Under the pieces are notes generated by a model that was not told the DNA's origin, did not search any database, and saw only the letters and a program-made list of their open reading frames with translations. Shown piece by piece: positions 5,259-64,000 of a stretch of DNA of 64,000 bases (position 1 is its first letter; the number at the start of each line of letters is the position of its first letter). A program made the position numbers and the translations under genes. The DNA comes from Diplonema papillatum (taxonomy: Eukaryota; Euglenozoa; Diplonemea; Diplonemida; Diplonemidae): the NCBI GenBank assembly GCA_030068145.1, contig JAPJBO010000269.1, positions 124,001 through 188,000 on the forward strand. The letters are read 5' to 3'.

Positions 5259-5259
5259 A

Positions 5260-5545: not shown

Positions 5546-5589
5546 TCCAAGGCGATTCGTAGTCACGAATGAGAGCAGATGCAGAGTAT

Positions 5590-12156: not shown

Positions 12157-12571
12157 TCTTCTTTTTTGCCGGTGTTGGCCTCGATTTCAGGGTTATCCTG
12201 GAGTGGAGGTTGGTGATGTGTTTAGCTGGAAACATGACCATGTGTTGTCGGAGTTAATTTTGTCGACTTTAATTATGTCGTTTTTATTTTTTTCGCCCGA
12301 CCAAATCCGACATAATTAAAAACGACATAATTACCGCCTGCACTGTAACGCGGTGCCTCTCTTCACGGAAAGTACGACCACGCGTGTGTTGGGATCCCCT
12401 TCCGTTTGTTCGGAGTACAAAAAAAGGAGGCAAACGGCGGGGCCTGCGTTTGTCAGTTTTTAGAGTGAAAGTTCGCTTGAAACTTTTTGCTATACCCCTC
12501 TTCAACCTCGCTTTTGGCGAGTGGATATGAGGAGTTCGCTCAGAACCGTAAGGATTCCAACTTGACGCGCC

Positions 12572-32427: not shown

Positions 32428-32446
32428 CGTCGATGGGAAGTGCGAA

Positions 32447-32561
32447 CAAGTGGGAAGGGAGGGAGGGGAAGCAAGCTACTTTGTTCCTCTGGACGGATTG
32501 GGAGCGGCAAACCTGTCGTTCGGATTATTATTAGTCTTCAAAGAAACAAGTTTCTTTTCCT
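32447..32561 (-). repeat. A1 terminal repeat of YR retroelement 1
   Basis: Matches A2 (28699-28813) over about 115 bp. It is followed on the plus strand by a long A-run that borders the left end of the next YR element. Confidence 0.88.
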
Positions 32562-32778
32562 AAAAAAAAAAAAAAAAAAACCGTACACCGCGAGAGTAGG
32601 AGAAAGTAGAAAGGGAAACTAGAGTTTTCGTTGACCGCACCTCCCGTCCCGGCGTCGTCAGAGTCGAAAGAAGGGGGGTCGTAGCACAGCGGAAAATCGG
32701 GAAATTTCGGGCGACGGGGCGGAGGTGGCCGGAGGATCGACGGGAAATGGGGAGATAGCAAAGGCTGTGGGACTCCGC

Positions 32779-33672: not shown

Positions 33673-33773
33673 GCGGGGCCGCCCCTTGGGCGGACCTCCG
33701 GACTCCTCGAGTCCAGTGGCCGGCGGGTCCGGACAGCAGAGAGCTGTGTAGGCCAAAGGCGCCCACCTCACCA

Positions 33774-35075: not shown

Positions 35076-35232
35076 AATGTTTTTCGTTGACCGCACTACC
35101 CTGAGCCCAAATCCTGGACGTGGTTTCAGGTGGCAAATTTGGCAAATGATCATGATCAGAAGGTTCTACTTGAGCGGTTCAGTTTCCTCACACATTGCAT
35201 GTGGCTAAAAAAAAAAGGCTGAGGGCGCATAC

Positions 35233-42344: not shown

Positions 42345-43080
42345 GGAAAGATGGGAAACAGGGGAAAGAACACTTCCGGGGACCTCTCGTGGTGCACACT
42401 CTTCCCGGGTTTCGGTCCAGCGAGCCACGCTGTAGCATGGTGCGCTAAAAAAAGCCACTCCAGGAGTCCCGGAAAAACACTGAAAGTAGGAAAGTAGGAA
42501 AAAGGCTTGCACTTTTGTTCTCAGATGCCTGTTATTGAGAATCACACCCGAGACAGCGAATGTTCGTCGTCGAAGTCTTTGAACCTCCTGGAACAGGGGA
42601 AACAGGGGAGAGAACACTTCCGGGGACCTCTCGTGGTGCACACTCTTCCCGGGTTTCGGTCCAGCGAGCCACGCTGTAGCATGGTGCGCTAAAAAAAGCC
42701 ACTCCAGGAGTCCCGGAAAAACACTGAAAGTAGGAAAGTAGGAAAAAGGCTTGCACTTTTGTTCTCAGATGCCTGTTATTGAGAATCACACCCGAGACAG
42801 CGAATGTTCGTCGTCGAAGTCTTTGAACCTCCTGGAACAGGGGAAACAGGGGAGAGAACACTTCCGGGGACCTCTCGTGGCTTTCACTCTTCCGGTCCAG
42901 CGAGCCACACTGTAGCAGGGTGCGCTCAGAAAAGTCACTCCGGGAGTCCCGGAAAAACACTGAACGTAGAAAAAAGGCTTGCACTGTTGTGTTCTCAGAT
43001 GCCTGTTATTGAGAATCACACCCGAGACAGCGAATGTTCGTCGTCGAAGTCCTTGAACCTCCCAGAGATGTCTTTGTTGC
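42345..43080 (-). repeat. Tandem triplication of the transposase 3' end
   Basis: Units of about 244 and 230 bp. CACACCCGAGACAGCGAATG lies at 42543, 42787 and 43017, and GAACACTTCCGGGGACCTCT precedes each of the first units. Each unit contains the last codons of the transposase (FKDFDDEHSLSRV frame or its remnant) and its 3' flank. Only the 43.0-kb copy is joined to the gene. Confidence 0.85.
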
Positions 43081-45412: not shown

Positions 45413-45688
45413 CCCCCCCCCCCTTCGAAGTTGTGTGTTTGTTTCCTGTGTTCTTGCTGCTGGTCTCCGCAACCGCAATGACCAAGTTCGCAACGACTGT
45501 TATGTGCAAGAATAGAAATACTAAGAATACGAAGCAATACTAAGGATACTGAGTATTTTCATTGGAAAACGTTCACCCGCACCCCACCCGCACCCCAGAC
45601 GGACTCACCCCGATTCCGTGTATGTCCGTGTGGGAGTATTTTTAGTCCGTGTAAGTCGGGCGGAATGCGGCGGACTGCATAGTATGAA

Positions 45689-47789: not shown

Positions 47790-49370
47790 TCAACTGACCA
47801 AAGGTGATGAAAATGATAAAGCAAAAGTTTCTTGTTCTTCGCGTGTACAGGGTATAAACCTCTCGAGGGACCCCCTGGGCCCCATCAGAGACTCGAGAGC
47901 ATCTCGAGTGCTCTGAGGGACGGAGAAAGGATGCGTCGAGGGCATCCCCCGGGTGTAAGGATCGGCACACTGCAGGTTCGTGGGAACCCAAAGAATTGTC
48001 AGTGCAATGTCAAAGCGGTCCAAAGTGGCGAACAACCTCGTCAGGAGGTGATCACCGAGGAAAGGCTTACAATGTCCTTTCAAGACCGCCAGAACAACGC
48101 CCATGTTGTCCACGTGCGCACGTAAGCGGCAGGAGCGACCCATCAATCTCGCTGTCTCCTCGACCAATACCAGCAGCGCGAATAGCTCCTTCAGGAAGAT
48201 GGAACAGTCGCTCAACTCCCGAAACGCGCCCGACTTGACAACACCACCGTCGACCTCGACCACAGTGGCCCAGGCGTGGTCAGAGGCGTCACTCCAGCCT
48301 AGCACCTCCCGTCCTACTGACGCGGCCGGAGAGAACCAAACGTTCCCGCAAAGCTCCTCCAGTTCTGCCTCTAAAGTCCTCCGTGATGACAACGGGAGGG
48401 AGATCTCCGAGTCCCAAAAGGATTTCCCCTCACCGAGTTTATGTGACCAATCCCGTACGAGGCTTAAAAGCTCATGCCTGAAACACAGCCTGCGCCGGAG
48501 TGCGTAGCAGCGCCACATGAATCTCCCAAACCAGCCGAAGAGGCGCCGCGGCGTAAGAGGAATACCGCACATCCAGGATTCGTACGTGGAACGCACCCAC
48601 GAAGGATCCATTCGCACGGAGCGGTTGACGAGGTCAAACTGCATGCCGAGGGCAACCAGTTCGCGGACCGCCACCAGCGGCTCTTTGATCTCCAGATTAA
48701 CGTAGGAGAGGATCGACTGGAAACGGGCGATCTTCTGCTGCAATTCGTCCTGATGATCCGCGCCGAAGAAGAAATTGTCCACCCAAGCGAAACCGCCAAC
48801 CAAGTGCGCCAGGCATGTCGCAATCCTCTGAGCGATCGCCGGGGCCCAGCTGAACCCCATAGGCAGACGCTTAAGCCGGAAGGACTTGAACACCCCGCGA
48901 GCCGACGATAAATTAACTGTGAAGAAATTCCTCACGCCTGGATCCAGGGGGATCTGGTAGAAGAACGACTTGGCATCGCAGGCCGCCACAAACTTCCAAC
49001 CGAGGAGCAGGTCCACTGCTGCCTCGAGGCGCGGCAGACCCATAGGGGGTGGAGGCAAACAAGCCTCATTCACCTTTCTGCCATCGACAATCGCCCGCAA
49101 TCCACCCGATCTCTTTTCCACCGTGAACATCGGTAGACTGAACTCGACTGATGCTAGATCAACCGGCTCGATCAGGTCGTATCCCACGAGATCGGTTTCA
49201 TGTCTCAACATTTGCCGCGAGGTAGAACGCTTCCTACCCGGCGCCCCCTCCCAGCCCGGCAACAGAATGGACTGGAAGACCTCACGGCTTTCTATCACGG
49301 CCAAAAGATGAGACAGCTCACCGGACTGATCAAGCAGCAAGGTCCATAACATTCGTCGAGATGTCAGCAA
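47790..49370 (-). CDS. RT-RNase H of YR retroelement 3
   Basis: 526 codons, uninterrupted. RT: SLPMFTVEKRSGGLRAIVDG with RKVNE, motif A FVAACDAKSFFYQIPLDPG, motif B region LKRLPMGFSWAPAIAQRIAT, motif C FAWVDNFFFGA, again Asp-Asn instead of Asp-Asp. RNase H: GWSDASDHAWATVVEV, LKELFALLVLVEE, AHVDNMGVVLAVLKG and LQCADPYTRG, so all four acidic positions are filled. The last codons run into the terminal direct repeat. It is distantly related to the RT of element 1. Confidence 0.86.
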   Translation of the reverse strand: MLTSRRMLWTLLLDQSGELSHLLAVIESREVFQSILLPGWEGAPGRKRSTSRQMLRHETDLVGYDLIEPVDLASVEFSLPMFTVEKRSGGLRAIVDGRKVNEACLPPPPMGLPRLEAAVDLLLGWKFVAACDAKSFFYQIPLDPGVRNFFTVNLSSARGVFKSFRLKRLPMGFSWAPAIAQRIATCLAHLVGGFAWVDNFFFGADHQDELQQKIARFQSILSYVNLEIKEPLVAVRELVALGMQFDLVNRSVRMDPSWVRSTYESWMCGIPLTPRRLFGWFGRFMWRCYALRRRLCFRHELLSLVRDWSHKLGEGKSFWDSEISLPLSSRRTLEAELEELCGNVWFSPAASVGREVLGWSDASDHAWATVVEVDGGVVKSGAFRELSDCSIFLKELFALLVLVEETARLMGRSCRLRAHVDNMGVVLAVLKGHCKPFLGDHLLTRLFATLDRFDIALTILWVPTNLQCADPYTRGMPSTHPFSVPQSTRDALESLMGPRGSLERFIPCTREEQETFALSFSSPLVS

Positions 49371-49409
49371 TCTGCCCTGGAACAGACACTTGACTCGGCG
49401 GCCCCGATC

Positions 49410-50222
49410 CTACCTGGATCCCCGAGTATCCCTGAATATCGCAGCAGGGCCTCGATCGACGAGTGATTCGAGACCAAACGACCTGCTCGAGGCTGGACCC
49501 CGAGCGGAAAAGCGCTGTGCAAGCCCCCCTCCGTAGCGAGTGGCACATGAGGACCGGGTTGACGCGCTTCGAGGACCTCGCCACTCTCGCCGCGTGGTGA
49601 CCGGGAACAGCGTACCGTCCGGCCCGGCGTCGCACTTCAACGTCTCCAAGGCAGCCCGGTCCCTCCGGGTCATTGCCACCGCGGACACAGCCCCCAGGTG
49701 GAACGGGTCGGATTTCGTCCACCACCACTTCACCTTCGCGCCCTCCTCCACAATCTCTACGTCTTTGCCTCTTAGACGAACTACATCGCCCACCCTCGCC
49801 GCAGCCCGGGAAAACAGGATCGCCATCCGCAGCGCAGTAGCCTTCTCCGCCTTCCCGGCCTTTTCCTTCTCCGCCTTGTCGTTCAACCGGTCGGCCGCCG
49901 CCCATCCCGACTTCAGGAAGTCGGGTGCTTCCTCCGTCCGCCCGTGTCGCTGCATCGCTGATGCCTGCCGCCAGTCGGAGCGGCCACGCAGGAGAACCTC
50001 CTGACGCCGAATGGCTGTCATGGCAATACGGACCAGAGCCGCATCCGCTTCTTCCGGAGTCTCCACGGCCCCGGCATGTTCGAGGACACACATCAGTATG
50101 TCTAGGAGGTTGTCGTGCTCGTGGCTTTGAGAGCCACTCGCCCCACCGTACCTCCTTTGCAGTTCGATGTAGACTGCAGCTCGTCCTTCCGGCGACAGAG
50201 ACACCCACCGCTCCGGTTCCAA
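49410..50222 (-). pseudogene. Gag-recombinase fusion remnant of YR retroelement 3
   Basis: One frame reads LEPERWVSLSPEGRAAVYIE and ILMCVLEHAGAVETPEEADA (the gag module seen in element 2). It passes straight into recombinase box I, TALRMAILFSRAAARVGDVV, and then TKSDPFHLGAVSAVAM. Compared with element 2, the gag C-terminus and the recombinase N-terminal domain are missing, so an internal deletion fused the two. The remaining recombinase motifs are in other frames: CHSLRRGACTALF (HxxR, about 49.53 kb) and NHSSIEALLRYSG (Tyr, about 49.45 kb). At least two frameshifts separate them. Confidence 0.75.
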
Positions 50223-50734
50223 CGCGCGAGCTCCAACGAGTATCCCCCCCCCGCACGCGGCCCGGCGGGGGGCAACTCGTTTTTTGCCCGCGCGGCCTCG
50301 AGCTGCATCTCCAGCTCGCGGATGCGCTTCTGAGCGTCACCTGTCTCCCCCTCATCGATGTCGGTGTCGCTATCGCCGCCGCCCCCGTCCTCCGACTCAC
50401 TGTCGCTCAAAGACAGCACCTGCGGCCTCGCCGGCGCCTCGGGGTTCGCCGCGTCGTACGCCCGCATCATCTTCGCGAGCCGCCTCTCGTTCAACGACGT
50501 GAACGCCAGCAACCAACAAAGCTGCCACTGGGTAGCCGTCCCCTCCAGCTCGAAGCCGTACTTAACGGCCACAAAGCGCATGCGCGCCTCCCTCCCCTCC
50601 CACGCGTTGAACAAACGCTTTTTCTCCAGCACTGCCGGAGCGTTCGCCTCGAAGGGCACGTCCGCCGCATCGAGCGCGGCGCCCTTTTTGTCTGACAGCG
50701 CCTTTAGGGCTGCCTTCGCTTGGTCGGCGTCCAT
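50102..50734 (-). pseudogene. Gag-like N-terminal part of YR retroelement 3, frameshifted
   Basis: ATG at 50734 starts MDADQAKAALKALSDKKGAA. The product continues through a helical region (LNERRLAKMMRAYDAANPEA), an acidic patch (SDSESEDGGGGDSDTDIDEG) and a coiled coil (RIRELEMQLEAARAKNE). At a run of C (about 50246) the homologous coding jumps to the frame of 49410-50222, so the last 40 or so codons of this frame are spurious. Confidence 0.7.
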
Positions 50735-50845
50735 GTTTTTGTTCTTCGCGTGTACAGGGTATAAACCTCTCTGGGGGGGGTTTTCCTGGATTAGCACTTT
50801 TTCGTTGGCTTCGTTTTCTCGTTCATGTGCAACCGTTGTTCCGGA

Positions 50846-51318
50846 AATGTTCCCGTCAGTACAGATGTACTATTAAAAAAAAAAAACGACTGAAAACCGG
50901 AAAATGATGAGGGGAGGTAATTGTTTTTTCGTTGAACGCGCGGTACTGGCACTGCGTGTGCTTGTGCGTGTGTCTTCTTAGATCGCTGTTCCTTCTCGGC
51001 TGTTGAACTCGCTTCAGTGACGCATTTTGGAAGACAGGGTGGAAGGAATATGGTTTTGGTGATTGGGTGTAGTCCTGTCTCTCATGCATGTGTTTGATGT
51101 CAGCATCCAGTCGTCGTGTTTACTTGACACCTTCGTTTGTTCCCAGCGGGGTAAGAAATGTGAAAACGGGTTTTTGCCTAGAGGCTTTTCGTGTTATTCT
51201 GCAGATGCTTTGAGCTATCTTTTGTGTCTATGCTTTCAGTCGTCTTCTTAACCATGGTTAAGTGCGCAAATGGTGTCAGCCGAAGCTGGTAAAGCTTCGG
51301 CGCCGCCCACGTTATGTT
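50846..51318. other. Spacer with a family G repeat
   Basis: GAAAACGGGTTTTTGCCTAG through TGCTTTCAGTCGTC at 51157-51245 is a full family G copy, followed by ACCATGGTTAAGTGCGC, also seen after the copy near 36.98 kb. No gene recognised. Confidence 0.5.
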
Positions 51319-51400
51319 TGTTTAGCATTGAGTTCTTTTAAGTACATGAACCACATGGATTAGCATGCACTGTGTCGCCGCTTAAGGTTACTTTATGACG
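51319..51400 (-). repeat. 3' tail of LINE copy A
   Basis: TTTAGCATTGAGTTCTTTTA, then AGTACATGAACCACATGGAT and TAGCATGCACTG on the plus strand. The same tail heads copies B (58779), C (63775) and D (63941), each time immediately next to the previous copy. Confidence 0.88.
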
Positions 51401-54400
51401 TCGTCACCTGTCATTGCGTCGTCAAGGTCGAGTACTTGTGGCACCAGGGGCGCTGGGCTTTCTTGCGGTTCTGGAGATTGCGTGGGGGGGCACAGGTGCG
51501 GACAGGCTTGCACGTTTTTCACTCTCGAGGGCACCGGAGTGCTTGGGGACGTCGGACGTTTCTGGTAGCTGCTTGCTTTAAGGGCCTTCTTCTTTTTTCG
51601 TTGCACCCCTGACTCGGGTGTGGTCGCCTTCGCCTTCTTCCGCTTGCGGCCGGCGATCGGGCTCTCCTTCGGGGTGCCGAGCACCCTCTTCTTCAACGCT
51701 GGTCGTTCGCCGGTCCCTGGCGTTGGTGGCGGCCTCTTGGCCGCCCGTCCGGTCGTCGCCGTCTTCTGCTTCACCACGGCGGGCGGTGCCTGCGCCGCGC
51801 GCTTTCCCGCCGGTGTTTCTCGTTGTACGCCCACCTGGGTGGGTGAGAGGGGTCTCTTCTTCTTTTTGCTGTGTCCGGGGGTTGCCGGGGCGTTCGGTTC
51901 GTTGGGTTGGTGGTGGCCGCGGCGGCAGCACGCTGCCGGTCTCCTCTGCGCCAACGTAGGGAGCCCCCTGCATTCCTGGCAGGTTCCTCTGCCATGCGTG
52001 CGGCAGGCATGATGCCCGCTGCGGCAGCACGCCGCCGCCGTCTTGCACTCGCCGCATTTCGTCGTGCTGTGCTCCACGCACACCGCGATCGGCTGCCCAT
52101 CGTCAGCGTGGTGATGGTGCCGACAGCACATCTCTACCGTGGGCACGTCCCTTCGGACGAGTGCTCGACACGCCTCACACTTCCCCTTGTGGTGGGTCGC
52201 GCAGGTGACGAGCGCTTTCTCTACTCCGACACCCGGCATATGCACGGGGTCGGGGTGCAGCTGTGGTGGGGCAGGCAGGGCCCACCTCGCCGCTCTCTCG
52301 GCCGTCCAGTCCGGGTACGTCGGGAACTGCGTCCCTACATCGCTTCCCTTCACCTGCTCTTCGAGGATCGTCCCCGTGTGTGCCTCGCGAAAGCGGGGCC
52401 TGGGCCGCACCCCCGATATCCCCGTGATGCCCATGAACGACAGCGACGTCGTCGGGCATACTCTCTCGCCTCTCTCGCAACTCCCCAGCCCTTGCTGTGT
52501 CGCCAGCTTGTCCAACGCGCTGATCATGCAGCGCAGGACGTTTCCTCGCTCCCTCACCCCCTTCGGTGCATTCTCGTGCAGCGGTATGCTGAGGCCTGAA
52601 AAGAGTTCAAAGTCGATGGCAAGCTCTAGCATTGACGCCTGCCCGTTCTCGGTCCACTCCATGTCTGACAGCCACGCTACCAACGCATAAAACGTCGGTA
52701 GTCCCCAGGCCTTGTTCCGCTCCCACGCCCATGCCGGGGCAATCCGCGCAAAGGGGTGGTCGAGCTTCTCGGCAGGCATCGCATCCGCTCTCGACCAGGG
52801 GGTCGTGGGGTTCCTGGCTACCCAGCCTCGTGCTTCGAGCCCTGCCCGTTCCGCAAGGATTTCAGCCATCATCTCCTGGAGCCGCCTCGAGAAGTGGGCA
52901 TTCTCGGGTACTACCACTCCGTGTTCCAGCGTGCATCTGGGCCAGTCGGCGCGGTTGGCCGCCATCAGCTCGGCATGTGCCTCTCGTCGCCGTATGTGCG
53001 AGTACGCTCCGCAGTCCCAGAATACGTGTTTCTCGTCCTCGGTGTCGCCGCTTCCACAGTGCTTGCAGCTGGGCGCCTGCGGCTCAGCTCCGGCCTGTCT
53101 CATCCGCGACGTGAACTCAGCCGTGTTCACTCCTCCCGCCAACGCTACACGTATAAGCCTCGCGGTGTGCGCGGGACATTCACGCATCCTCCAGAAGGAG
53201 TTCGTCCGCTCCAAGTCGGCTCTCTGTACACCCTCAAATCCCGGCCGCCTCGCTACCAGACGGGACCACGTCTTCGCCCTCAAATCCGCCCTCACTTCAT
53301 GCCCCCTCTTCGAGGGTGTCGAGGCTATCGGGTCAAATATTGCACCATTCCTCAGCGTGCGAGACAGGGGCCCTGGTCCCCATACGTGTCCACACTCCTC
53401 CATGCTCTTCATCGCCAGTCCAACTGGCCCCAGGGGTAGGTCCTCCTCGGCGTACCTTCCCCGGATGCTCTCCATCAGAGGCAGAAGTCGTGGCAACCTC
53501 TCGCACGCCGCGTAGAACGCCGTCGTCACCCTATATGCTAGGCATGTACTGGGGTCCGTCAGGTGGCCCTTCTCCTGAAAATTTAGGACCATCTCCCTCG
53601 CGCGCTTTGGGTTGGACCCACCCCAGATCAGTCCCATCACCGACGTCGTCAGCCGTTTCATTGCCACCTTCGACACCGGCGCGAAAGAGCAGCCTGACAG
53701 CGCCGCCGGCAGCACATTCGACTGTACAATCCGGACCCGCTTCTCGTACCGGAACGGCGCATGGCGGAGGCCTTCCGCCAGGGCAGCCGCCTTCTCCACC
53801 CTCTCCGAGTCGGACCTTTCTGTCCTATTCTTCGCCGTCGAGACTAGGGCCCCCAGGCACGTGACAGATTTGCCAAACCGCAGCAGCGCATCCACGCTGC
53901 GGAGTCTGAGCGTCGACTGATGCCTACGTCTCGTCGAGAAGGCGACCGTTTTCTGGAGGTTCAGCTCCATTCCGGTGAGCGTGCAGAACTCGTCTACCAC
54001 GTCCACCCCCTTTTGCAGGGCGGCCTCCGACAGCCGCGATAGCAGCGTGGCATCGTCCGCGTACGACTTTGGGCTCACCCCCTCCGCTTCTTTCTTGACC
54101 GCCTTCATCACTACCGACAGCAGGGCATTGATGAGGATGACGGATACAGGGCACCCTTGAAGGATACCATTGGTCACACTAAACTCCCTGCCCACCCCTA
54201 GAGGCAGCTTGAAGCGTCTCGCGAGCAGTCTGTAGATCGCCCTCAGCGGCTTGAGAACCCGATTGTGCAACCCTAAGTCCCCGGCCAGGCGCAGCACTAT
54301 CTCTCGCGGGACCATGTCGAAACATTTCCGGAAGTCCAGCGCCACTCCGTAGAGCGGCTCTCCATCTAGCAAGGCGTCCTCCATCTCGAGCCCTATCTCC

Positions 54401-57303
54401 ATCAGGACGTCCTCGATACGGTGACCCGGTCGAAAGCCCTTCTGTCCTTCTTCGATCCACTTCTCCTGCCACAGGACTATGTCCGCAAGCCTGCGGCACG
54501 CCCATAGGCGGTACACAGCGGACGTGACGGTTATTGGCCTCGTGTGCAGCGGGTCTTGGCTCTCATCCTTCGGCACCATCGACACCAGGGCAGTTGTCAT
54601 GCTCGCCGGCCAAACCCCAGTCACTTCGACCAGGTTCATGACATCCGCTAGCGCATTCAGCAGGGGAAGCGGCAACTCCCGCAGTTCAGCCATGCGCCAG
54701 CCATCCACGCCTGACGCGCTTTTCTTCGGCTTCTTCCTTAGCAGAGTCCGCAGCTCCTCCCCCGTGATCGTCCCGGGTTCCATCAAGTGTGTGTCGATGT
54801 GCTCCTGGAACCGATCCCGAAACGGTCCGTACTCCGGCTCTGGCCGGTCCTTGTATTTACGCAGGATAGCGTCCCACGCAGTGTGCAACACCTCGTCCAT
54901 CTCGTCCACATTTGCAGTCATCTTCGCTCCGGTGCGCAACACACCCGACGGCTCAGCGCGACCGGCGCAGACGGTCGCTAGACATCGTCTGCTCGCGTCC
55001 GCCCTCTCGTTAAGCTTGTCTCGGTACTTCGTAAACCTGGCCGCAGATCCTTCCCTTCCGAGCCTACTCGTCTCTTCCCGCAACGCTGTGAGCAGCTGCT
55101 TCGCCTTCTCATGATCCGGAAACCCCCCTGCGCCTTGGTCGCCCACCATGCACGCTTGTGCCAGCCGCTTGCAGTTCTGCCAGCAGAGGGACACCTCATG
55201 TGGAACAGCTTCCGGCCCGCGACGTTGCGCGAGGTAGCTGCAGATGCGTTCCATCCGGTGGATGGCCTTTCTAAGCCGTAGCTGCCTGCTGTTCGCTGCC
55301 CCCGACCCGTCGGTCGCAGTGCCCGCCGTGACACAGACCCTCCTCGGCAATGTCTTCATCCCCCGGCCGGTACCCCTTCCTCTCTCTTCCACAGGGACGG
55401 CGAATGCATCCTGCAAGTACCGCTCACTGACCCGTGACCACTCGAGCCAGGCCTCTTCCACCCGCTGCGCCGCCAATCGTTCCGCGAATTCGGAGTTGGC
55501 CAGTCTCTGTACGGCTTCCCTGTCGGCTTCTGCTTCCGAGAGGTCCCACTTGGACCCCCCCTCTGTCGGGATCTCCCGCGGCACCTTAAATCGCCACACG
55601 CTTTGGCGCAGCGCTGCAATATCCAGGGTCACTGTCACGAGCCGGTGTCCCGGTACGTTCACCGCGGTGGTGACGCATTGACGGAATGCACACGCCGCTA
55701 TGCGGTTGAGGAGTATGCGGTCGATCCTCGTGCCTGACGTCCGGGCGCTGGTAAAGGTCGGTGGCGGAGGCGTGTTCCCGGTGCGCGCATGGTGCAGTTC
55801 CGCTGCGTCGGACCATCCGTTCCTAAGTGCCTTCCGCAGAACAGGGGACCGATCTTCTTCCGTGTTGAGGTCTCCCATCACCAGTATGGGGACGTCGCCG
55901 AGGCTGTCTGCCGCCGCAAAGAGGACCTTCTCCAGCATGTCCTCACGTTCCTCGTTCTCCGCCCTCCCGTTTCCTGATGGGCAGTAGACATTGAACACGT
56001 GCACGAAGGTGCTGCCGGTCCCTGTTGCGACTACAGTATGGCTTACCCGGTCCGGGGACCGTAACGCCACGTGCGAGAGCGCTGCCAACGTGTCGTACGC
56101 CGGTATCGGCCTCTGTACTAGAGTGCAGAGTCCCCCGTTCGCAGCGTTCGTCGTCGAGCGACTACCGGAGCTTCTACAGAGTCTCCCGGGAGGTGGCGGA
56201 CCCCAGTGGCAGCACCAATTCCGTAGGTATTCCTCCGCCTGTGCCCGTTTGCATCGAAGGAGTGTGACCTCCTGGCAGCAAAGAAGGTCGGCTTCCACCG
56301 CGTTAACCGCTACTATGTACTGCAGCATGCTGGTCACGTTGAGCGTCGCGAACTTCATCTCCGTGCGGCCGGGACCAGGGTTCTGTTCGACGTCCCCAGC
56401 TGTTAACAGCCGCTCTCGTGCAGATCCTCTGACTGATTCTTCTGTTCTTTTACTGTTACATAAATGCGTAGGGTTGGACTGTTGATGGGGGGGATGGGTG
56501 AGTGACTGTGGGGGGGGTGGGGGGGGCATTGTGGGTGGATCCAGCGTACCTTGTTCTCCTCTGGTGGGGGAGGAGCAGCGGGCCCTTCCCTCGTGCACAG
56601 CTCTGTAGGTGAGCGAGACCCTGTCGTGTGTGACATCACCGGGACGGATCCCGTGTGTCCACAGGTTCCTGGCCTCGCCCTCCATGTGGCACAGAGTGCC
56701 GGCTGGCAGCGGGGTTCTCACTCTTTGGGTCCCCCTCTCCCACTCCATGACCGTGTCACTCAGTAGCGAAACAGTCGCAACCCTCGGTCCAAGTTCTTGC
56801 TGGTCTTTATGGGGGTTTATCCCCACTCCCTTCCGGTACCAGTTGGCCAGCAACTGGTCCGGTTCCCACCCCAGACGGTCACGTATGACATCCGCAGCTT
56901 CTCTCAGGGGCCCCTCGGGGATCCCCCGCTCCAGTTTGACCGGGGGTCCGCCCTGTCGATAGGCGTGCCCCCACTGCTGGGTTTCCCTGCCATGCCCTCC
57001 CCCCAGCCTTCCCCAGGGGGCTTCCGGTCTGAGCTCGGGGACCCGGCTCAGCCTCTCCAGGAGGTCCCGAGGGATCGTCTGGAAGCTGAGCCCGGGAATG
57101 GGTCCATCCTCCCTGCTTCGGGGGGGCTTGCTCCCGGGTCTTTGCCCCTCGCCGTAAGTCGGCCGCGGATGTTGGTCATTGTGGGGGGTTTGTTTGTGCG
57201 CAATGTCGGGCCCTCGGGGTAAAACTCCCGGACGACTGAGGCCTGGCGCGTCGAGAGAGGGGGAGAAAGAAGAAGAAGAGGGTCTGCCGCCCCCTTCGCG
57301 CAT
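51388..57303 (-). CDS. LINE ORF2: AlkB-type dioxygenase, 2A peptide, APE endonuclease, reverse transcriptase, Cys/His repeats
   Basis: 1971 codons. Residues about 100-240 form a 2OG-Fe(II) dioxygenase of AlkB type: NWYRKGVGINPHKDQQ (His165, Asp167), NLWTHGI (His217) and RVSLTYR (Arg228...Arg234), i.e. HxD...H...RxxxxxR complete. Residues 301-312, TAGDVEQNPGPG, are a 2A ribosome-skipping motif, which would release the N-terminal part between Gly310 and Pro311. Endonuclease follows at about 317-565: ATLNVTS, CCQEV, VMGDLNTEEDRS, GTRIDRILLNR, PGHR. RT at about 860-1125: ALDFRKCFDMVP, NGILQGCPVS, SYADDATLL. Then CKHCG-x-KHVFWDC (about 1413-1431), three Cys/His repeats (1701-1798: CEACR...CCRHHHH, CGECK...CCRSGHH, CQECR...CCRRGHH) and a Lys/Arg/Pro tail. 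The AlkB part probably acts on methylated nucleic acid; that is inference. Confidence 0.9.
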   Translation of the reverse strand: MREGGGRPSSSSFSPSLDAPGLSRPGVLPRGPDIAHKQTPHNDQHPRPTYGEGQRPGSKPPRSREDGPIPGLSFQTIPRDLLERLSRVPELRPEAPWGRLGGGHGRETQQWGHAYRQGGPPVKLERGIPEGPLREAADVIRDRLGWEPDQLLANWYRKGVGINPHKDQQELGPRVATVSLLSDTVMEWERGTQRVRTPLPAGTLCHMEGEARNLWTHGIRPGDVTHDRVSLTYRAVHEGRARCSSPTRGEQGTLDPPTMPPPPPPQSLTHPPHQQSNPTHLCNSKRTEESVRGSARERLLTAGDVEQNPGPGRTEMKFATLNVTSMLQYIVAVNAVEADLLCCQEVTLLRCKRAQAEEYLRNWCCHWGPPPPGRLCRSSGSRSTTNAANGGLCTLVQRPIPAYDTLAALSHVALRSPDRVSHTVVATGTGSTFVHVFNVYCPSGNGRAENEEREDMLEKVLFAAADSLGDVPILVMGDLNTEEDRSPVLRKALRNGWSDAAELHHARTGNTPPPPTFTSARTSGTRIDRILLNRIAACAFRQCVTTAVNVPGHRLVTVTLDIAALRQSVWRFKVPREIPTEGGSKWDLSEAEADREAVQRLANSEFAERLAAQRVEEAWLEWSRVSERYLQDAFAVPVEERGRGTGRGMKTLPRRVCVTAGTATDGSGAANSRQLRLRKAIHRMERICSYLAQRRGPEAVPHEVSLCWQNCKRLAQACMVGDQGAGGFPDHEKAKQLLTALREETSRLGREGSAARFTKYRDKLNERADASRRCLATVCAGRAEPSGVLRTGAKMTANVDEMDEVLHTAWDAILRKYKDRPEPEYGPFRDRFQEHIDTHLMEPGTITGEELRTLLRKKPKKSASGVDGWRMAELRELPLPLLNALADVMNLVEVTGVWPASMTTALVSMVPKDESQDPLHTRPITVTSAVYRLWACRRLADIVLWQEKWIEEGQKGFRPGHRIEDVLMEIGLEMEDALLDGEPLYGVALDFRKCFDMVPREIVLRLAGDLGLHNRVLKPLRAIYRLLARRFKLPLGVGREFSVTNGILQGCPVSVILINALLSVVMKAVKKEAEGVSPKSYADDATLLSRLSEAALQKGVDVVDEFCTLTGMELNLQKTVAFSTRRRHQSTLRLRSVDALLRFGKSVTCLGALVSTAKNRTERSDSERVEKAAALAEGLRHAPFRYEKRVRIVQSNVLPAALSGCSFAPVSKVAMKRLTTSVMGLIWGGSNPKRAREMVLNFQEKGHLTDPSTCLAYRVTTAFYAACERLPRLLPLMESIRGRYAEEDLPLGPVGLAMKSMEECGHVWGPGPLSRTLRNGAIFDPIASTPSKRGHEVRADLRAKTWSRLVARRPGFEGVQRADLERTNSFWRMRECPAHTARLIRVALAGGVNTAEFTSRMRQAGAEPQAPSCKHCGSGDTEDEKHVFWDCGAYSHIRRREAHAELMAANRADWPRCTLEHGVVVPENAHFSRRLQEMMAEILAERAGLEARGWVARNPTTPWSRADAMPAEKLDHPFARIAPAWAWERNKAWGLPTFYALVAWLSDMEWTENGQASMLELAIDFELFSGLSIPLHENAPKGVRERGNVLRCMISALDKLATQQGLGSCERGERVCPTTSLSFMGITGISGVRPRPRFREAHTGTILEEQVKGSDVGTQFPTYPDWTAERAARWALPAPPQLHPDPVHMPGVGVEKALVTCATHHKGKCEACRALVRRDVPTVEMCCRHHHHADDGQPIAVCVEHSTTKCGECKTAAACCRSGHHACRTHGRGTCQECRGLPTLAQRRPAACCRRGHHQPNEPNAPATPGHSKKKKRPLSPTQVGVQRETPAGKRAAQAPPAVVKQKTATTGRAAKRPPPTPGTGERPALKKRVLGTPKESPIAGRKRKKAKATTPESGVQRKKKKALKASSYQKRPTSPSTPVPSRVKNVQACPHLCPPTQSPEPQESPAPLVPQVLDLDDAMTGDDVIK

Positions 57304-57396
57304 TGCTGCGTGATCGAACTGCCTAGTAGCGTTGCTAGGACTCGGCAGCCCGAACGAGGGCCTCGGTCCTCCGGTGGCCCGGGGATCCTGATGCAG

Positions 57397-58725
57397 TCAG
57401 CCACTGCCAGCCTTCTCCCTGGTGCGGTAGCATTCGTGGCACACTCTGGCACCACACGCGCACTTCCTCTGCAGCGTGTTCTTCCCCTTCCCTCCGTTGC
57501 AGCGGCTGCACTTCCAGGCCACCTTCGTCTTCTCCACGTCATCGCCCCAGTTGTGGACGTGCGCATCGACCTGCATCTCGCCTTCCGCACTTCCCGCGGC
57601 TTCGCCTTCCATCTCGCCCGCCTTCCGCTTCGCGCTCGGCGCCACGTCCTCCTGCCGAGCCGCCGGTGGGGCATCCTGTTCCCCCTGGGGTAGCCGCGCG
57701 TTGGGGATGCGGCCCTTCCAATGCTTCGTACCGCTAGGTACGTCGCCGACCCTCACCCTCCGGATGTAGAGCGGCGTCCTGTTCGCCCTCTTCACCACCT
57801 CGGCTGGCGGGTCCGTGCTGGCGTTGACCACCAGGTTGGTGCGCCTGCCTGTCACGAAGCACTTCGTGACCCGGCAGTCCCACTGCACCGCACGCAGTGC
57901 GGCGAGCATCTCCTCCTGATGCTCACCGACCTCGCTCTCCACCAGGAACCTCGCCTCGGGGGGGCCCTGGCGCTCCGGCGCTGCCAAGGAGCCGGCCCTG
58001 TCGATGAGCGTCCTGCGGGCCGCCGGGTTGCTGGCGGAGTAGCGCACCCCGTACCGCGTCCTCGCCGCTGCCACCCCGAGCGCGTCGGCGTGTCCGGCGA
58101 TCTCCATCGCCTGCTCCAGCTTGGCATCCTCCGCCAGCCACACGACGGGGTGCAACTCGTTGCCATTGACGAAGGATGGCGCGGCCCAGTACACGCCCCC
58201 CTTGCCGCTGGAGCGCAGTAGAGTCGGCGCCTCGCGCGTCGTGACCCGCACTGACACCGTGTGCCGCGTCGACGTGCAACGGTGGTTAAACCGATGCCTC
58301 CTCTCGATGGTGACCCCCGCGGCCGCCGCTGCTCTTCGACACAGCACGTCTGCTGCTCCTGCTCCCGTCGCGGCACTCTTCAGCGAGGTGCGTGTCTTCT
58401 CGTCGACGTCCTTGTACATTACTGTACACCACATGACCGTGGTCGCATCTCCCACCTCGACCTCCTTCGCGATCGGTACACGCCCGACGTCGGCTCCACC
58501 CCACTGCGTCACGTAACACGACGCCTCCGTGCCGTTGTCGAATCTGACGATCCGCTCCCGACTCTCGTCCGTCAGCCTGCCCGGCGTCACCAGCGCGACC
58601 CTAAGGTCCTTCGCCTCCATCTCCAACAGCTCTCGGTACCCCGCACCAAGCTGCTCCCCCGTTTCCTTTCTTCCGGCGTAGACCACCCCCTGCCGGATGT
58701 CTTCCGCCTTCTCCGCCTCGACCAC
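57397..58725 (-). CDS. LINE ORF1 protein (RNA-binding, zinc-finger C-terminus)
   Basis: About 442 codons. The frame opens with a GTG at 58725; the first in-frame ATG is about 30 codons later (MEAKDLRVALV), so the start is uncertain and the true 5' end may be missing. Most of the protein is not recognised. The C-terminus has a double-zinc pattern, WKCSRCNGGKGKNTLQRKCA then CGARVCHECYRTRE (CxxC...CxC...CxxC), preceded by a basic/acidic linker (KRKAGEMEGEA). By position it is the LINE ORF1, expected to bind element RNA. The gap to ORF2 is 93 bp. Confidence 0.75.
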   Translation of the reverse strand: MVEAEKAEDIRQGVVYAGRKETGEQLGAGYRELLEMEAKDLRVALVTPGRLTDESRERIVRFDNGTEASCYVTQWGGADVGRVPIAKEVEVGDATTVMWCTVMYKDVDEKTRTSLKSAATGAGAADVLCRRAAAAAGVTIERRHRFNHRCTSTRHTVSVRVTTREAPTLLRSSGKGGVYWAAPSFVNGNELHPVVWLAEDAKLEQAMEIAGHADALGVAAARTRYGVRYSASNPAARRTLIDRAGSLAAPERQGPPEARFLVESEVGEHQEEMLAALRAVQWDCRVTKCFVTGRRTNLVVNASTDPPAEVVKRANRTPLYIRRVRVGDVPSGTKHWKGRIPNARLPQGEQDAPPAARQEDVAPSAKRKAGEMEGEAAGSAEGEMQVDAHVHNWGDDVEKTKVAWKCSRCNGGKGKNTLQRKCACGARVCHECYRTREKAGSG

Positions 58726-58776
58726 CTCGACATGCCAGTCGCATGGCCTCAGCCTCTTTCCGCGGCTGACTCCCGT

Positions 58777-61700
58777 TGTTTAGCATTGAGTTCTTTTAAG
58801 TACATGAACCACGTGGATTAACATGCACTGCCTTGAAAGTCAGGTTATCGGATGACGTCGTCACCTGCCATTGCGTCGTCAAGGTCGAGCATTTGTGGAG
58901 CTAGCGGGGTTTGGCTTTCTTGCGATTCCAGAGACTGAGTCGGCGAGTACTAGGGCGGGCACGTGTGTCCGTTTTTCACTTTCGAGGGCGTTGGTGTGCC
59001 CGTGGTCCCCGGTCGTTTCTGAGAGCTGCTTGCCCTCGGTACCGTCTTCTTCCTTCGATGCACCACTGAGTCGGGGGTGGTCGCCTTCGTCTTCTTCCGC
59101 TTGCGGCCGGCGATCGGGCCTTCCTTCGGGGTGCCTAGCACCCTTTTCTTCAGCGCTGGTCGTTCGCTGGTTCCTGGCGTTGGTGGCGGCCTTTTGGTCG
59201 CCCGTCCGGTCGTCGCCGTCTCCTTTTTCGTTGCCGCGGGCGGCGCTTGCGCCGCTCGCTTTCCAACTGGCGTTCCCCGTTGTACGCCCACCTGGGTGGG
59301 TGAGGAGGGCCTCTTCTTCTTGTTGCGTCCGGGGGTTGACGGGACGTTCGGTTCGTTGGACTGGTGGTGGCCGCGGCGGCAACATGCCGCCGGTCGCCTC
59401 TGCGTCAGCGTAGGGAGCCTCTTGCACTCTTGGCAGGTTCCTCTGCCATGCGTGCGGCAGGCATGATGCCCGCTGCGGCAACACGCCGCCGCCGTCTTGC
59501 ACTCGCCGCACTTCGTCGTGCTGTGCTCTGTGCACACCGCGATCGGCTGCCCATCGTTCGCGTGGTGATGGTGCCGGCAGCACATCTCTACCGTGGGAAC
59601 GTCCCTTCGGACGAGTGCTCTGCACGCCTCACACTTCCCTTTGTGATGGGTCGCGCACGTGACGAGTGCCTTCTCTATATCGACACCCGGCATATGCACG
59701 GGGTCTGGGTGCAGTTGTGGTGGGGCAGGCAGGGCCCACCTCGCCGCTCTCCCGATCGCCCAGTCAGGGTACGCCGGGCACTGCGTCCCTACATCGCTTC
59801 CTTTCACTTGTTCCTCAAGTATCGTCCCCGTGTGTGCCTCGCGAAAGCGTGGCCTGGGCCGTATACCCGATATCCCCGTGATGCCCATGAACGACAGCGA
59901 CGTCGTCGGGCACACCCTCTCTCCTCTCATGCAGCTTCCCAGCCCTTGCTGTGCCGCCAGCTTGTCCAACGCGCTCATCATGCAGCGCAGGACGTTTCCC
60001 CGTTCTCTCACCCCCTTCGGCGCATTCCCGTGCAGCGGCATGCTGAGGCCCGAGAAGAGTTCAAAGTCGATCGCAAGCTCCAGCATTGACACCTGCCCGT
60101 TCTCGGTCCATTGCATGTCCGACAGCCACGCTACCAACGCATAAAACGTCGGTAGTCCCCAGGTCTTGTTCCGCTCCCACGTCCATGCCGGGGCAATCCG
60201 CGCGAAGGGGTGGTCAAATTTCTCGGCAGGCATCGCATTCGCTCTCGACCAGGGGGTCGTGGGGTTCCTGGCCACCCAGCCACGTGCTTCGAGCCCAGCC
60301 CGTTCCGCAAGGATTTCAGCCAACATCTCCTGGAGCCGCCTCGAGAATTGGGCATTCTCGGGTACTACCACTCCGTGTTCCAGCGTGCATCTGGGCCAGT
60401 CGGCCCGGTTGGCTGCCATCAGCTCGGCATGTGCCTCTCGTCGCCGTATGTGCGAGTACGCTCCGCAGTCCCAGAATACGTGTTTCTCGTCCTCGGTGTC
60501 GCCGCTTCCACAGTGCTTGCAGCTGGGCGCCTGCGGCTCAGCTCCGGCCTGCCTCATCCGCGACGTGTACTCAGCCGTGTTCACCCCCCCCGCCAACGCT
60601 ACACGTATAAGCCTCGCGGTGTGCGCGGGACATTCACGCATCCTCCAGAAGGTTTTCGTCCGCTCCAGGTCGGCTCTCTGTATGCCCTCAAATCCCGGCC
60701 GCCTCGCCACCAGTCGGGACCACGTCTTCGCCCTCAAGTTCGCCCTAACTTCATGTCCCCTCTTCGAAGGTGCCGAGGCTAACGGGTCATATGTTGCACC
60801 ATTCCTCAGCGTGCGAGACAGGGGCCCGGGTCCCCATACGTGTCCACACTCCCCCATGCTCCTCATCGCCAGTCCAACTGGCCCCAGGGGTAGGTCCCCC
60901 TCGGCGTATCTTCCCCGGATGCTCTCCATCAGAGGCAGCAGTCGTGGCAACCTCTCGCACGCCGCGTAAAACGCTGTCGTCACCCTATATGCTAGGCATG
61001 TAGGTTTAGCTCCATACCGGTGAGTGTGCAGAACTCGTCTACTACGTCCACTCCCTTTTGCAGGGCGGCCTCCGACAGCCTGGACAGCAGTGTGGCGTCG
61101 TCCGCGTATGACTTTGGACTCACACCCTCCGCTTCTTTCTTGACCGCTTTCATCACTACCGACAGCAGGGCATTGATGAGTATGACGGATACAGGGCACC
61201 CTTGAAGGATACCGTTGGTCACACTGAACTCCCTGCCCACCCCTAATGGTAGCTTGAAGCGTCTCGCGAGCAGTCTGTAGATAGCCTTCAGCGGCTTGAG
61301 AACCCGATTGTGCAATCCTAAGTCCTCGGCTAAGCGCAGTACTATCTCTCGTGGGACCATGTCGAAGCATTTCCGGAAGTCCAGCGCCACACCGTAGAGC
61401 GGCTCCCCGTCTAACAAGGCGTCCTCCATCTCGAGCCCAATTTCCATCAAGACGTCCTCGATCCGGTGACCTGGTCGAAAGCCTTTCTGTCCTTCTTCGA
61501 TCCATTCCTCTTGCCACAGTACTATGTCCGCCAGCCTGCGGCAGGCCCATAGGCGGTACACGGCGGATGTGACGGTTATCGGTCTTGTGTGCAGCGGGTC
61601 TTGACTCTCATCCTTCGGCACCATCGACACCAGCGCAGTTGTCATGCTTGCCGGCCAGTCTCCAGTTGCTTCGACCAGGTTCATGACGTCCGCAAGTGCA

Positions 61701-63772
61701 TTCAGCAGGGGGAGCGGCAACTCCCGCAGTTCAGCCATACGCCAGCCATCCACCCCTGACGCGCTTTTCTTCGGCTTCTTCCTCAGCAGAATTCGCAGCT
61801 CCTCCCCCGTGATTGTTCCGGCTTCCATCATATGTGGGCCGATGTGATCCCGGAACCGATCCCGAAACGGCTCGTACTCCGGCTCTGGCCCGTCCTTGTA
61901 CTTACGCAGGATAGGGTCCCACGCAGTGTTCAGCACCTCGTCCATCTCGTCAACATTTGCAGTCACTCCCGCCCCCTTTCGCAACACCCCCGACGGCTCA
62001 GCGCGTCCGGCGCAGATGGTTGTCAGACATCGTCTGCTCGCATCGGCCCTCTCGTTCAGCTTGTCTCGGTATTTCGTAAACCTGGCCGCCGATCCTTCCT
62101 TTCCGAGCCTGCTCGTCTCTTCCCGCAATGCCGTGAGAAGCTGCTTCGCCTCCTCATGATCCGGGAATCCTTCTGTCCCTTGGCCATCTTTCATGCACGC
62201 CTGTGCCAGCCGCCTGCTGTTCTGCCAGCAACGGGATACCTCATGCGGAACTGCCTCCGGCCCGCGCCGTTGCGCAAGGTAGCTGCAGATGCGTTCCATC
62301 CTGTGGATGGCCTTCCGGAGCCGTAGCTGTCTGCTGTTCGCCGCCCCCGACCCGTCGCTCGCAGTGCTTGCCGTGATGCAGACTCTTTTAGGTGACGTCT
62401 TTATCCCCCGGCCGGTACTTCTTCCCCTTTCTTCCGCAGGGATTCCGAAGGCATCCTGCAAGTACTGCTCACTGACTCGTGACCACTCGAGCCAGGCCTC
62501 TTCCACTCGCTGTGCTGCCAGCCGTTCTGCGAAATCGGAGTTGGCCAGTCTCTGTACGGCTTCCCTGTAAGCTTCTGTGTCCGAGAGGCCCCACTTGGGT
62601 CCCCCCTCCGTAGAGATTTCCCGCGGTACTTTAAATCGCCACACGATTTGGCGCAGCGCCGCAATGTCCAGGGTCATTGTCACGAGCCGGTGTCCCGGCA
62701 CGTTCACCGCGGTGGTGACGCATTGGCGGAAAGCTCCCGTCGTTATTCGGTTGAGGAGTATGCGGTCGATCCTCGTGCCCGATGTCCGGGCGCTAGTAAA
62801 GGTCGGTGGTGGTGGTGTGTCACCGGTACGCGCATGGTGCAGTTCCGCTGCGTCGGACCACCCATTCCTTAGTGCCTTCCGCAGTACAGGGGACCGGTCT
62901 TCTTCTGTGTTCAGGTCACCCATCACCATTATGGGGACGTCACCGAGGCTATCCGCCGCTGCGAAGAGGATCTTCTCCAGCATGTCCTCACGCTCCTCGC
63001 TCTCCGCCCTCCCGTTTCCGGAAGGGCAGTAGACATTGAACACGTGCACGAACGTGTTGCCGGCCCCTGTTGCTACTACCGTATGGCTCACTCGGTCCGG
63101 GGACCGTATTGCTGCGTGCGAGAGCGCCGTCATCGTATCGTACGCCGGTATCGGTCTCAGTACTAGAGTGGAGAGCCCTCCGTTCGCGGCGTTCATCGTC
63201 GAGCGACTACCGGAGTTCCTACAGAGTCTTCCGGGTGGTGGCAGACCCCAGTGGCAGCACCATTTCCGCAGGTATTCCTCCGCCTGCACCCGTTTGCACG
63301 GAAGGAGTGTCACCTCCTGGCAGCAGAGAAGATCCGCTTCCACCGCGTCGGCCGCTGGGAGATACTGTAGTAGGTTGGTTACGTTTAACGTCGCGAACCT
63401 CATCTCCGCGCGGCCGGGACCAGGGTTTTGTTCGACGTCCCCCGCGGTTATCAGCCGCTGTCTTGCTGATTCTTTGATTGATTGTAGAGTTCTTTGGTGA
63501 TGAAGCAAAAGTGTCCGTGGCGCGGGGCTGGACTGATGTTGGGGGGGTGCAGTGGATGCCTGAGGGCTGGGCGGGGGGGGTATGGGAGTTTCTTGCGGGG
63601 TGTCCCGGCCTTGCAAACTTTGGGAGGCGGCCTCGCGCACGGCCCTGTAGGTCAGCGAGACCCGGTTGCGTGCGACATCATCGGGACGAATCCCGTGTGT
63701 CCACAGGTTCCTGGCCTCGCCTTCCATGTGGCACAGTGTGCCGACCGGCAGAGGGGTTCTCACTTTCCGGCT
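58777..63772 (-). mobile_element. LINE copy B, 5'-truncated and internally deleted
   Basis: Same family and strand as copy A. Its 3' tail begins at 58779, directly against copy A. Its 5' end stops at 63772, inside the AlkB region, directly against the 3' end of copy C. ORF1 and the start of ORF2 are missing. About 410 bp corresponding to 53549-53956 of copy A are deleted near 61003, and the frame shifts there. The copy is not functional. Confidence 0.88.
58890..63772 (-). pseudogene. Broken ORF2 of LINE copy B
   Basis: First part (60992-63763 frame): RTPLPVGTLCHMEGEARNLW with THGI and RVSLTYR (AlkB end), TAGDVEQNPGP (2A intact), FATLNVTNLLQY, VMGDLNTEEDRS, YADDATLL. The deletion falls after TGMELNL. 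The second part (from about 61000 down, other frame) resumes at TCLAYRVTTAFYAACERLPR and keeps the CKHCG finger and all three Cys/His repeats. It ends at an earlier stop (58950) than copy A. Conservation of the 2A and Cys/His repeats in this second copy shows they belong to the family. Confidence 0.88.
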
Positions 63773-63939
63773 TTTTTAGCATTGAGTTCTTTTAAGTACA
63801 TGAACCACATGGATTCGCATGCACTGCCTTGAAAGTCAGGTTATCGGATGACGTCGTCACCTGCCATTGCGTCGTCAAGGTCGAGCATTTGTGGCGCTAG
63901 CGGGATTTGGCTTTCTTGCGATTCCAAAGACTGAGTCGT
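63773..63939 (-). mobile_element. LINE copy C, 3' end only
   Basis: About 165 bp: the tail TTTAGCATTGAGTTCTTTTA through the end of the ORF2 region (GACGTCGTCACCTGCCATTG, GATTCCAAAGACTGAGTCG). It abuts copy B on one side and copy D on the other. Severely 5'-truncated. Confidence 0.82.
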
Positions 63940-64000
63940 TGTTTAGCATTGAGTTCTTTTGTAAGTACATGAACCACATGGATTAGCAGTCACTGTTTAG
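63940..64000 (-). mobile_element. LINE copy D tail, cut by the window end
   Basis: GTTTAGCATTGAGTTCTTTT, then GTAAGTACATGAACCACATG, GATTAGCAGTCACTG. The final five bases TTTAG could be the first bases of yet another tail, which would make copy D only about 55 bp long; the window ends there. Confidence 0.7.

Follow-up and report, generated by a model that had tools for sequence, protein, structure and literature searches.

We have analysed a 64,000-nucleotide stretch of the Diplonema papillatum genome (the window: assembly GCA_030068145.1, contig JAPJBO010000269.1, positions 124,001 to 188,000 of the forward strand), and have found on its minus strand a long interspersed nuclear element (LINE) in which a predicted AlkB-type dioxygenase precedes, across a 2A peptide core, the endonuclease and the reverse transcriptase (RT) of the same frame. 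An in-frame UGA-CUN stop is the only break between this frame and the open reading frame upstream (ORF1) in all five subfamily representatives. We are modestly inclined to read the element as a target-specific, multi-copy LINE with an apurinic/apyrimidinic endonuclease (APE), in which readthrough of UGA-CUN and release at 2A would yield an ORF1-AlkB fusion, AlkB would demethylate the element RNA, and the APE-RT protein would nick a motif of Penelope-like elements. The parts of the focus element are the following.

51326..58775, minus strand: LINE copy A (the focus element), 5'-truncated within ORF1, 3' end ...GAACTCAATG, delimited by its joints and by the longer relatives L069-L072
57397..58779, minus strand: ORF1, partial, 460 open codons, with a C-terminal Cys-rich cluster, ending in TGA
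57394..57399, minus strand: UGA-CUG stop at the ORF1/ORF2 boundary, same frame, the proposed readthrough site
51388..57303, minus strand: ORF2 from its first ATG, 1971 amino acids (aa), with the order AlkB-2A-APE-RT-Cys/His clusters-basic tail; frame open back to 57396
56584..57093, minus strand: predicted AlkB / 2-oxoglutarate (2OG)-Fe(II) dioxygenase domain, residues 71-240, with NxY 154/156, HxD 165/167, H217 and R228/R234
56371..56397, minus strand: 2A (StopGo) core GDVEQNPGP, residues 303-311, from the sequence
55693..56328, minus strand: APE-type endonuclease, Exo_endo_phos, residues 326-537 (Pfam)
53935..54549, minus strand: reverse transcriptase, RVT_1, residues 919-1123, with YADD at 1081 (Pfam)
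52996..53067, minus strand: CCHC-type cysteine/histidine motif, residues 1413-1436 (by eye)
51901..52203, minus strand: repeated Cys/His-rich clusters, residues 1701-1801, followed by the basic tail (by eye)

With APE and RT in one ORF2, the focus element is an APE-type retrotransposon without long terminal repeats (non-LTR), and it has the many copies, the 5' truncation and the common 3' end of a LINE. The original prediction, made from this DNA alone, had described one intact 1971-codon frame with APE and RT motifs after 2A. Indeed, ORF2 runs from 57303 to 51388 on the minus strand with no stop, and both Exo_endo_phos (residues 326-537, E 1.3e-10) and RVT_1 (residues 919-1123, E 2e-19) score over their curated Pfam cut-offs. 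Actually, the reading frame is free of stops over 2002 codons, when followed upstream to the ORF1 UGA. The 5' truncation of the window copy falls within its ORF1, which has 460 open codons versus 610-687 in L069-L072, and ORF1 matched no Pfam family, either in the window copy or in the longer relative L072.

Judged from its sequence, the domain upstream of 2A is an AlkB-type 2OG-Fe(II) dioxygenase. The Pfam profile 2OG-FeII_Oxy_2 (PF13532) matches ORF2 residues 134-234 with an E-value of 5.7e-13 (49.9 bits, cut-off 31.2), and the HxD...H...RxxxxxR residues of AlkB, which had been read by eye at 165-234, hold up together with a significant profile. Among PDB sequences, human ALKBH8 matches residues 1-311 best (E 5e-7), followed by fission-yeast P8A3.02c (E 9.2e-6). 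The predicted cofactor residues are in place (N154/Y156, H165xD167, H217, R228/R234), at the NxY, HxD...H and RxxxxxR positions that are named as cofactor-binding in PMC9289625. Against the bacterial AlkB equivalog TIGR00568, the AlkB part scores below the curated cut-off (15.2 bits vs 231).

We have searched the 271-Mb assembly containing the window, where only the best candidates were scored and copy numbers are therefore lower bounds. The 261-aa AlkB-2A query (residues 60-320) was matched at all the 146 scored places (the best 146 of 405 first-look candidates), and the N-terminal part is thus present in other copies too. Of these matches, 144 span the 2A core and two stop short of it, 145 are stop-free, and 95 are part of open frames that reach 1900 aa or more, with identities in the classes of 97-100%, 89-93% and 75-77%. 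Five subfamily representatives, the window copy and L069-L072, were picked by identity class and not randomly. In all five, GDVEQNPGP or GDIEQNPGP is present in frame between AlkB and APE, and a Met, at 316 in the window copy, stands between 2A and the APE domain. The GDVEQNPGP predicted at 303-311 is thus a canonical core with AlkB upstream. In addition, searching the genome with a degenerate DNA pattern that encodes G-D-[V/I/M]-E-x-N-P-G-P gave 360 exact matches, and the reversed-pattern control gave 0. Among the matches listed, most but not all encode GDVEQNPGP or GDIEQNPGP. Codons for the cores GDIEPNPGP, GDVETNPGP, GDIEENPGP and GDVERNPGP were also observed (e.g. at C2:356828, C20:484476, C38:442089 and C63:421494), and these probably belong to other elements. 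In viral contigs, the AlkB-2A part gave 6 pattern matches, none of them confirmed, and in phages there was a single weak match, confined to the RT part.

ORF1 and ORF2 share one frame. After removal of the duplicates L012 (the same as the window copy) and L067 (the same as L072), 40 rows leave 38 distinct copies, 33 of which carry ORF1-TGA-CT[G/A/C] in frame with ORF2; in the remaining five, four are 5'-truncated behind the tail of another copy, and L030 is unclear. In every one of the five representatives, UGA-CU[G/A/C] is the only break between ORF1 and the AlkB frame, and UGA-CU is common to them all despite an ORF1 identity of only 26-37% between the three lineages, the ORF2s being far closer. 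An ATG located 31 codons past the stop, at 57303, is found in the window subfamily, which accounts for 26 of the 33 stop-bearing copies. It is absent in L069-L072, where the first in-frame ATG is located behind HxD, and the other seven copies, from four subfamilies, have no ATG ahead of the equivalent of residue 60. Because one frame is broken only by UGA-CU[G/A/C] (5/5) and no AUG comes before AlkB (4/5), AlkB more likely forms the C-terminus of a product made from ORF1 by readthrough; that is, stop readthrough giving an ORF1-AlkB fusion released at 2A seems more likely than a free AlkB. The original prediction had proposed that AlkB would be released as a free protein, in amounts equal to those of APE-RT. 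This is not favoured by the shared frame and by the missing AUG, while it would be possible in the window subfamily, where the ATG is present. As for the codon itself, a C following UGA promotes readthrough, and UGA CUA G is a high-readthrough motif (PMC12233894). UGA as a sense codon was considered and rejected, as five ORF2 frames of ~2000 codons have no in-frame UGA.

The ratio of non-synonymous to synonymous substitution rates (dN/dS) was calculated for the five representatives, whose main split separates window/L072 from L069/L070/L071 (six comparisons). Over this split, dN/dS is 0.15-0.19 for AlkB (71-240), 0.16-0.17 for APE and 0.02-0.07 for RT, while it reaches 0.28-0.48 for the 28 codons around 2A, 0.41-0.78 for the AlkB-2A linker and 0.53-1.03 for the pre-AlkB spacer. 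Thus, over the main split, AlkB is under purifying selection that resembles that on APE, while the adjacent linker drifts. The contrast of AlkB and linker between the focus copy and its neighbour in the window (copies A and B) agrees with this result: over 45 common AlkB codons, dN is 0.073 and dS 0.319, and in the linker dN is 0.60 and dS 0.94.

The focus copy belongs to a head-to-tail array, D-C-B-A, with the joints CTAAACAA, CTAAAAAA and CTAAACAA. In the following, T1 is the predicted empty target site.

51272..51325, minus strand: 3' part of the Penelope-like pseudo-LTR target motif (T1 from position 29), 56 nt with a 100% match to T1 positions 27-82
58776..58783, minus strand: CTAAACAA, target remnant (short target duplication) between copies B and A
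58784..63771, minus strand: copy B, ends approximate, 5'-truncated inside AlkB, with the same 2A core and an internal loss in the RT region
63780..63938, minus strand: copy C, a fragment of the 3' tail of this LINE
63947..63994, minus strand: copy D, start approximate, also a fragment of this LINE's 3' tail, but shorter

The 3' joint is precise. Among tails matching [AG]GAACTCAATG, which alone were counted (two look-alike L055 rows were dropped, and L002 repeats the window), all 27 distinct ones continue with CTNAA and 26 of 27 with CTNAAC. By joining 5' and 3' flanks, we have predicted the empty sites T1 (82 nt) and its variant T2 (81 nt). All 40 places scored for T1 (the best 40 of 1218 candidates) match it at 100% identity, and of the 40 scored for T2 (the best 40 of 1671 candidates), 11 match at 100% and 29 at 98-99%. 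A further variant, T3, was joined from one locus, L043. On contig C232, two T1 copies are 5316 bp apart, inside 299-bp direct repeats that are 100% identical (L073 139-437 and 5455-5753). The T1-bearing element, of which one was read, is 5.3 kb long and has a single 1457-aa ORF with Pfam matches to GIY-YIG (E 3.9e-6) and OTU (E 2e-5); its RT matches RVT_1 weakly (0.035, below the cut-off), with motifs that look Penelope-like by eye. GIY-YIG and RT in one ORF, plus pseudo-LTRs, characterise Penelope-like elements (PMC11167929). We accordingly place the predicted LINE insertion point at one constant point within an ~82-bp motif, which lies in the pseudo-LTRs of a Penelope-like element of the GIY-YIG type. 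On the 5' side, target sequence is seen in six loci and extends to positions 35-59, and the site is therefore partly rebuilt upstream of the insertion. Repeated insertion into such a partly rebuilt site would explain the D-C-B-A array. A self-targeting or telomere-like cause of the array was dropped, the flanks being Penelope-like pseudo-LTR.

The target motif is probably structured. T1, T2 and T3 fit a three-way junction in which 98.4% of 62 cells are paired, and 12 of 22 pairs have changed on both sides, compared with 5.2 (standard deviation 1.6) in shuffles, none of the 500 shuffles being as high. When the partner was slid by 1-3 columns, at most 4 covarying pairs were obtained. Since the junction was drawn from the same three sequences that were tested for covariation, this result is suggestive and not final. 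The motif has no Rfam match near any gathering score, so it does not appear to be a recognised hammerhead or other catalogued ribozyme.

AlkB is also found in other elements of this genome, according to a PF13532 profile search in which the best 150 of 250 candidates were scored. A Helitron on contig C65 (overlapping pieces L046 and L076, one copy read) has a 1767-aa frame with AlkB near its start (PF13532 E 5e-17) and with Helitron_like_N (E 7.7e-38). Its AlkB is 42-44% identical to the LINE AlkB, and has relatives on other contigs (L047, L049 and L056-L060, AlkB part only). On contig C641 (L075, L077, L078), a frame opens with an AlkB 78% identical to that of the LINE, and contains C2H2 fingers and an OTU-like stretch (both by eye) and the start of an RT (RVT_1 E 8.1e-7, 29.4 bits, cut-off 29.6). 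No NPGP occurs in the part read, and by eye this element is probably a second, R2-like LINE. In the alignments that we have read, the iron- and 2OG-binding residues are intact in the five LINE representatives, C641 and the Helitron rows.

A tree built from 27 AlkB rows, all from this genome and carrying a long-branch warning, has one group of 14 with a support of 100/99, consisting of the five LINE representatives, the LINE copy L062, C641, four Helitron-type rows and L053-L055. Within it, no split sets the LINE rows apart from C641. The 13 rows outside may be host genes. The tree suggests that the AlkB module has been exchanged between element types. In a broader view, to which we would give not quite even credence, an AlkB 'eraser' module would circulate among the APE-LINE, the probable R2-like LINE and the Helitron; the LINE would couple AlkB to the ORF1 protein (ORF1p) by readthrough, while 2A would keep it apart from the polymerase, and a single mRNA would thus yield ORF1p, ORF1p-AlkB and APE-RT in tuned stoichiometry, and its landing site would be a structured, possibly ribozyme-like Penelope-like motif. 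Apart from these elements, a frame at L042 1-1911 (contig C232), which is open over 1484 aa in the genome, begins with a ubiquitin domain and has an AlkB-type domain at its C-terminus.

The model that we lean towards builds on what is observed, namely the domain order, the copy number, the selection on AlkB, the in-frame UGA-CUN, the precise 3' joint and the empty sites. According to it, ORF1 would be translated to its end at UGA-CUN, and a fraction of ribosomes would read through UGA into the same-frame ORF2, giving ORF1-AlkB. One bond would then be skipped at 2A, by which ORF1-AlkB would be released and the APE-RT protein made separately. The ORF1 protein of LINEs is usually RNA-binding, and ORF1p would here keep the dioxygenase on the element RNA. 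AlkB enzymes are able to remove the RT-blocking N1-methyladenosine (m1A) and N3-methylcytidine (m3C). The most likely role of AlkB would be to demethylate the element RNA, clearing the template of methyl groups that act as blocks or marks ahead of target-primed reverse transcription. APE-RT would nick one strand at the fixed point of the structured Penelope-like pseudo-LTR motif and prime there. As an example of a dioxygenase from a retrotransposon, the orchid Gypsy AlkB demethylated N6-methyladenosine (m6A) RNA in vitro (PMC9289625).

On the other hand, several points weigh against this model. The full UGA CUA G motif is absent, the contexts in the representatives being UGA-CUG-C, UGA-CUA-C and UGA-CUC-G, and the stop-free spacer is weak evidence, as it is GC-rich and would be open by chance with a probability of 0.05-0.37 per copy. 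The copies examined are the best-scoring ones and no random sample. Reinitiation at the ATG of the window subfamily could yield AlkB-2A, and the Met after 2A could start APE-RT without AlkB. Such a course is the real rival to readthrough, above all in the window's subfamily: ORF2 would be reached by termination-reinitiation or internal initiation, and AlkB would be translated separately from a start of its own, in line with the original prediction. The ATG 31 codons past the stop speaks for it, and so does the Met that directly follows 2A, before APE, in all five representatives. We nevertheless consider it rather unlikely, since four of the five representatives lack that ATG and have their first in-frame ATG behind HxD, and since ORF1 and ORF2 form a single frame with UGA-CU in all five across such divergent ORF1s. 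Tandem duplication at the DNA level or an assembly error, which the head-to-tail copies in the window might bring to mind as the source of the array and the common flanks, is very improbable, because copies A and B are ~10-14% different, the identical 3' joint occurs on many contigs, and intact empty sites exist at the predicted sequence.

The role of AlkB can be questioned as well. Within the groups, dN/dS is higher for AlkB than for APE (L069/L070, 0.27 vs 0.10; L070/L071, 0.30 vs 0.09; window/L072, 0.55 vs 0.11), and L069/L071 gives 2.35 for AlkB from very few changes. Away from the main split, the constraint on AlkB thus seems weaker than that on APE. Together with the possibility that AlkB has spread among element types by exchange alone, this lower constraint within one branch would fit an AlkB part that is passively carried along, or one that serves in structure or RNA binding and whose catalysis is not needed. 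We regard this as quite improbable in view of the APE-like purifying selection over the main split and the intact cofactor-binding residues in the five LINE representatives, C641 and the Helitron rows. If AlkB is catalytic, its substrate might be DNA (a methylated target or new cDNA) or host chromatin near the insertion instead of the element RNA. In favour of this, DNA repair in vitro is described for ALKBH8 proteins from protozoa, bacteria and mimivirus (PMC4051686), and a Helitron, which is a DNA transposon, has a related AlkB in the same genome, fitting a substrate common to DNA and RNA elements. However, AlkB lies behind ORF1 and before 2A, and would thus be apart from the DNA-cutting APE-RT, which favours RNA, so a DNA or chromatin substrate seems to us possible but doubtful. 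For an RNA substrate, a simple benefit of erasing m6A is at odds with human cells, in which m6A helps L1 and ALKBH5 suppresses L1 (PMC7873242).

It is already known that retrotransposons capture enzymes and that LINEs carry 2A. 2A-like peptides reportedly occur in APE-type non-LTR elements, such as L1Tc of Trypanosoma cruzi and those of sea urchin and others, in work credited to Heras in 2006 and Odon in 2013. In Xenopus, the LINE Tx1L targets another transposon, Tx1D. The present LINE likewise has its insertion site inside another mobile element, while its predicted target, unlike that of Tx1L, is a structured motif in Penelope-like pseudo-LTRs. The D[V/I]ExNPGP core is shared with the 2A-bearing non-LTR elements of PMC4981915, from which our element differs by the whole AlkB before 2A and by the same-frame ORF1 with UGA-CUN before AlkB. 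The term AlkB is absent from the main text of the 2A papers PMC4981915 and PMC12846837. The orchid Ty3/Gypsy elements with an ALKBH5-like ORF are similar in that a retrotransposon has captured an AlkB-family dioxygenase with intact cofactor residues (PMC9289625). In those LTR elements, the ALKBH5-like protein is a separate ORF2 with m6A RNA demethylation in vitro, while here the element is a LINE, and AlkB, a predicted dioxygenase, is in the APE-RT frame with ALKBH8 as its nearest PDB match. SymbioLINE-Dnmt and SymbioDIRS-Dnmt3 are LINEs and DIRS elements that have acquired nucleic-acid-modifying enzymes, under purifying selection (PMC5890265), but these enzymes are cytosine methyltransferases, i.e., writers, while the dioxygenase here is a possible eraser. 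Similarly, 2OG dioxygenases occur in several transposon classes of fungi, Helitrons included, where they are TET/JBP and not AlkB (PMC12730594). In the literature that we have searched (most subscription papers and Repbase lay outside it, and papers on Helitrons with AlkB were covered in part), we have not found an AlkB-bearing LINE or Helitron, nor the combination of AlkB and 2A, the same-frame UGA layout or the target. This agrees with the earlier statement that no LINE with AlkB upstream of 2A was known to be described.

The window has several other features. A partial match to eukaryotic small-subunit ribosomal RNA (model positions 623-1113 of 1831) lies within repetitive DNA at 5107-5659 on the plus strand and is probably a pseudogene. 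A relic of the dinoflagellate spliced leader was looked for, allowing up to 3 mismatches, and gave no match. On the minus strand, there are RVT_1 matches at 29083-35165 (25.7 bits, under the cut-off) and 47790-50869 (35.9 bits, over the cut-off), and the frames adjoining both regions resemble tyrosine-recombinase retroelements (DIRS/Ngaro-like, by eye). Also on the minus strand, a DDE_1 transposase frame (Pfam) is found at 10477-12186, and a frame with a hAT-like Pfam match under the cut-off at 43016-45499. At 17197-18778, a 99-bp unit is repeated 16 times, 99% alike, within a single long open frame.

Overall, if the model is true, a retrotransposon that is present more than a hundred times in a single genome would bring along a candidate methyl-mark eraser of its own, and the readthrough and 2A in one element would constitute an unusual double recoding. 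This makes it testable whether template methylation, through RT-blocking m1A and m3C or through m6A marking, restrains mobile elements, and whether its erasure helps them.

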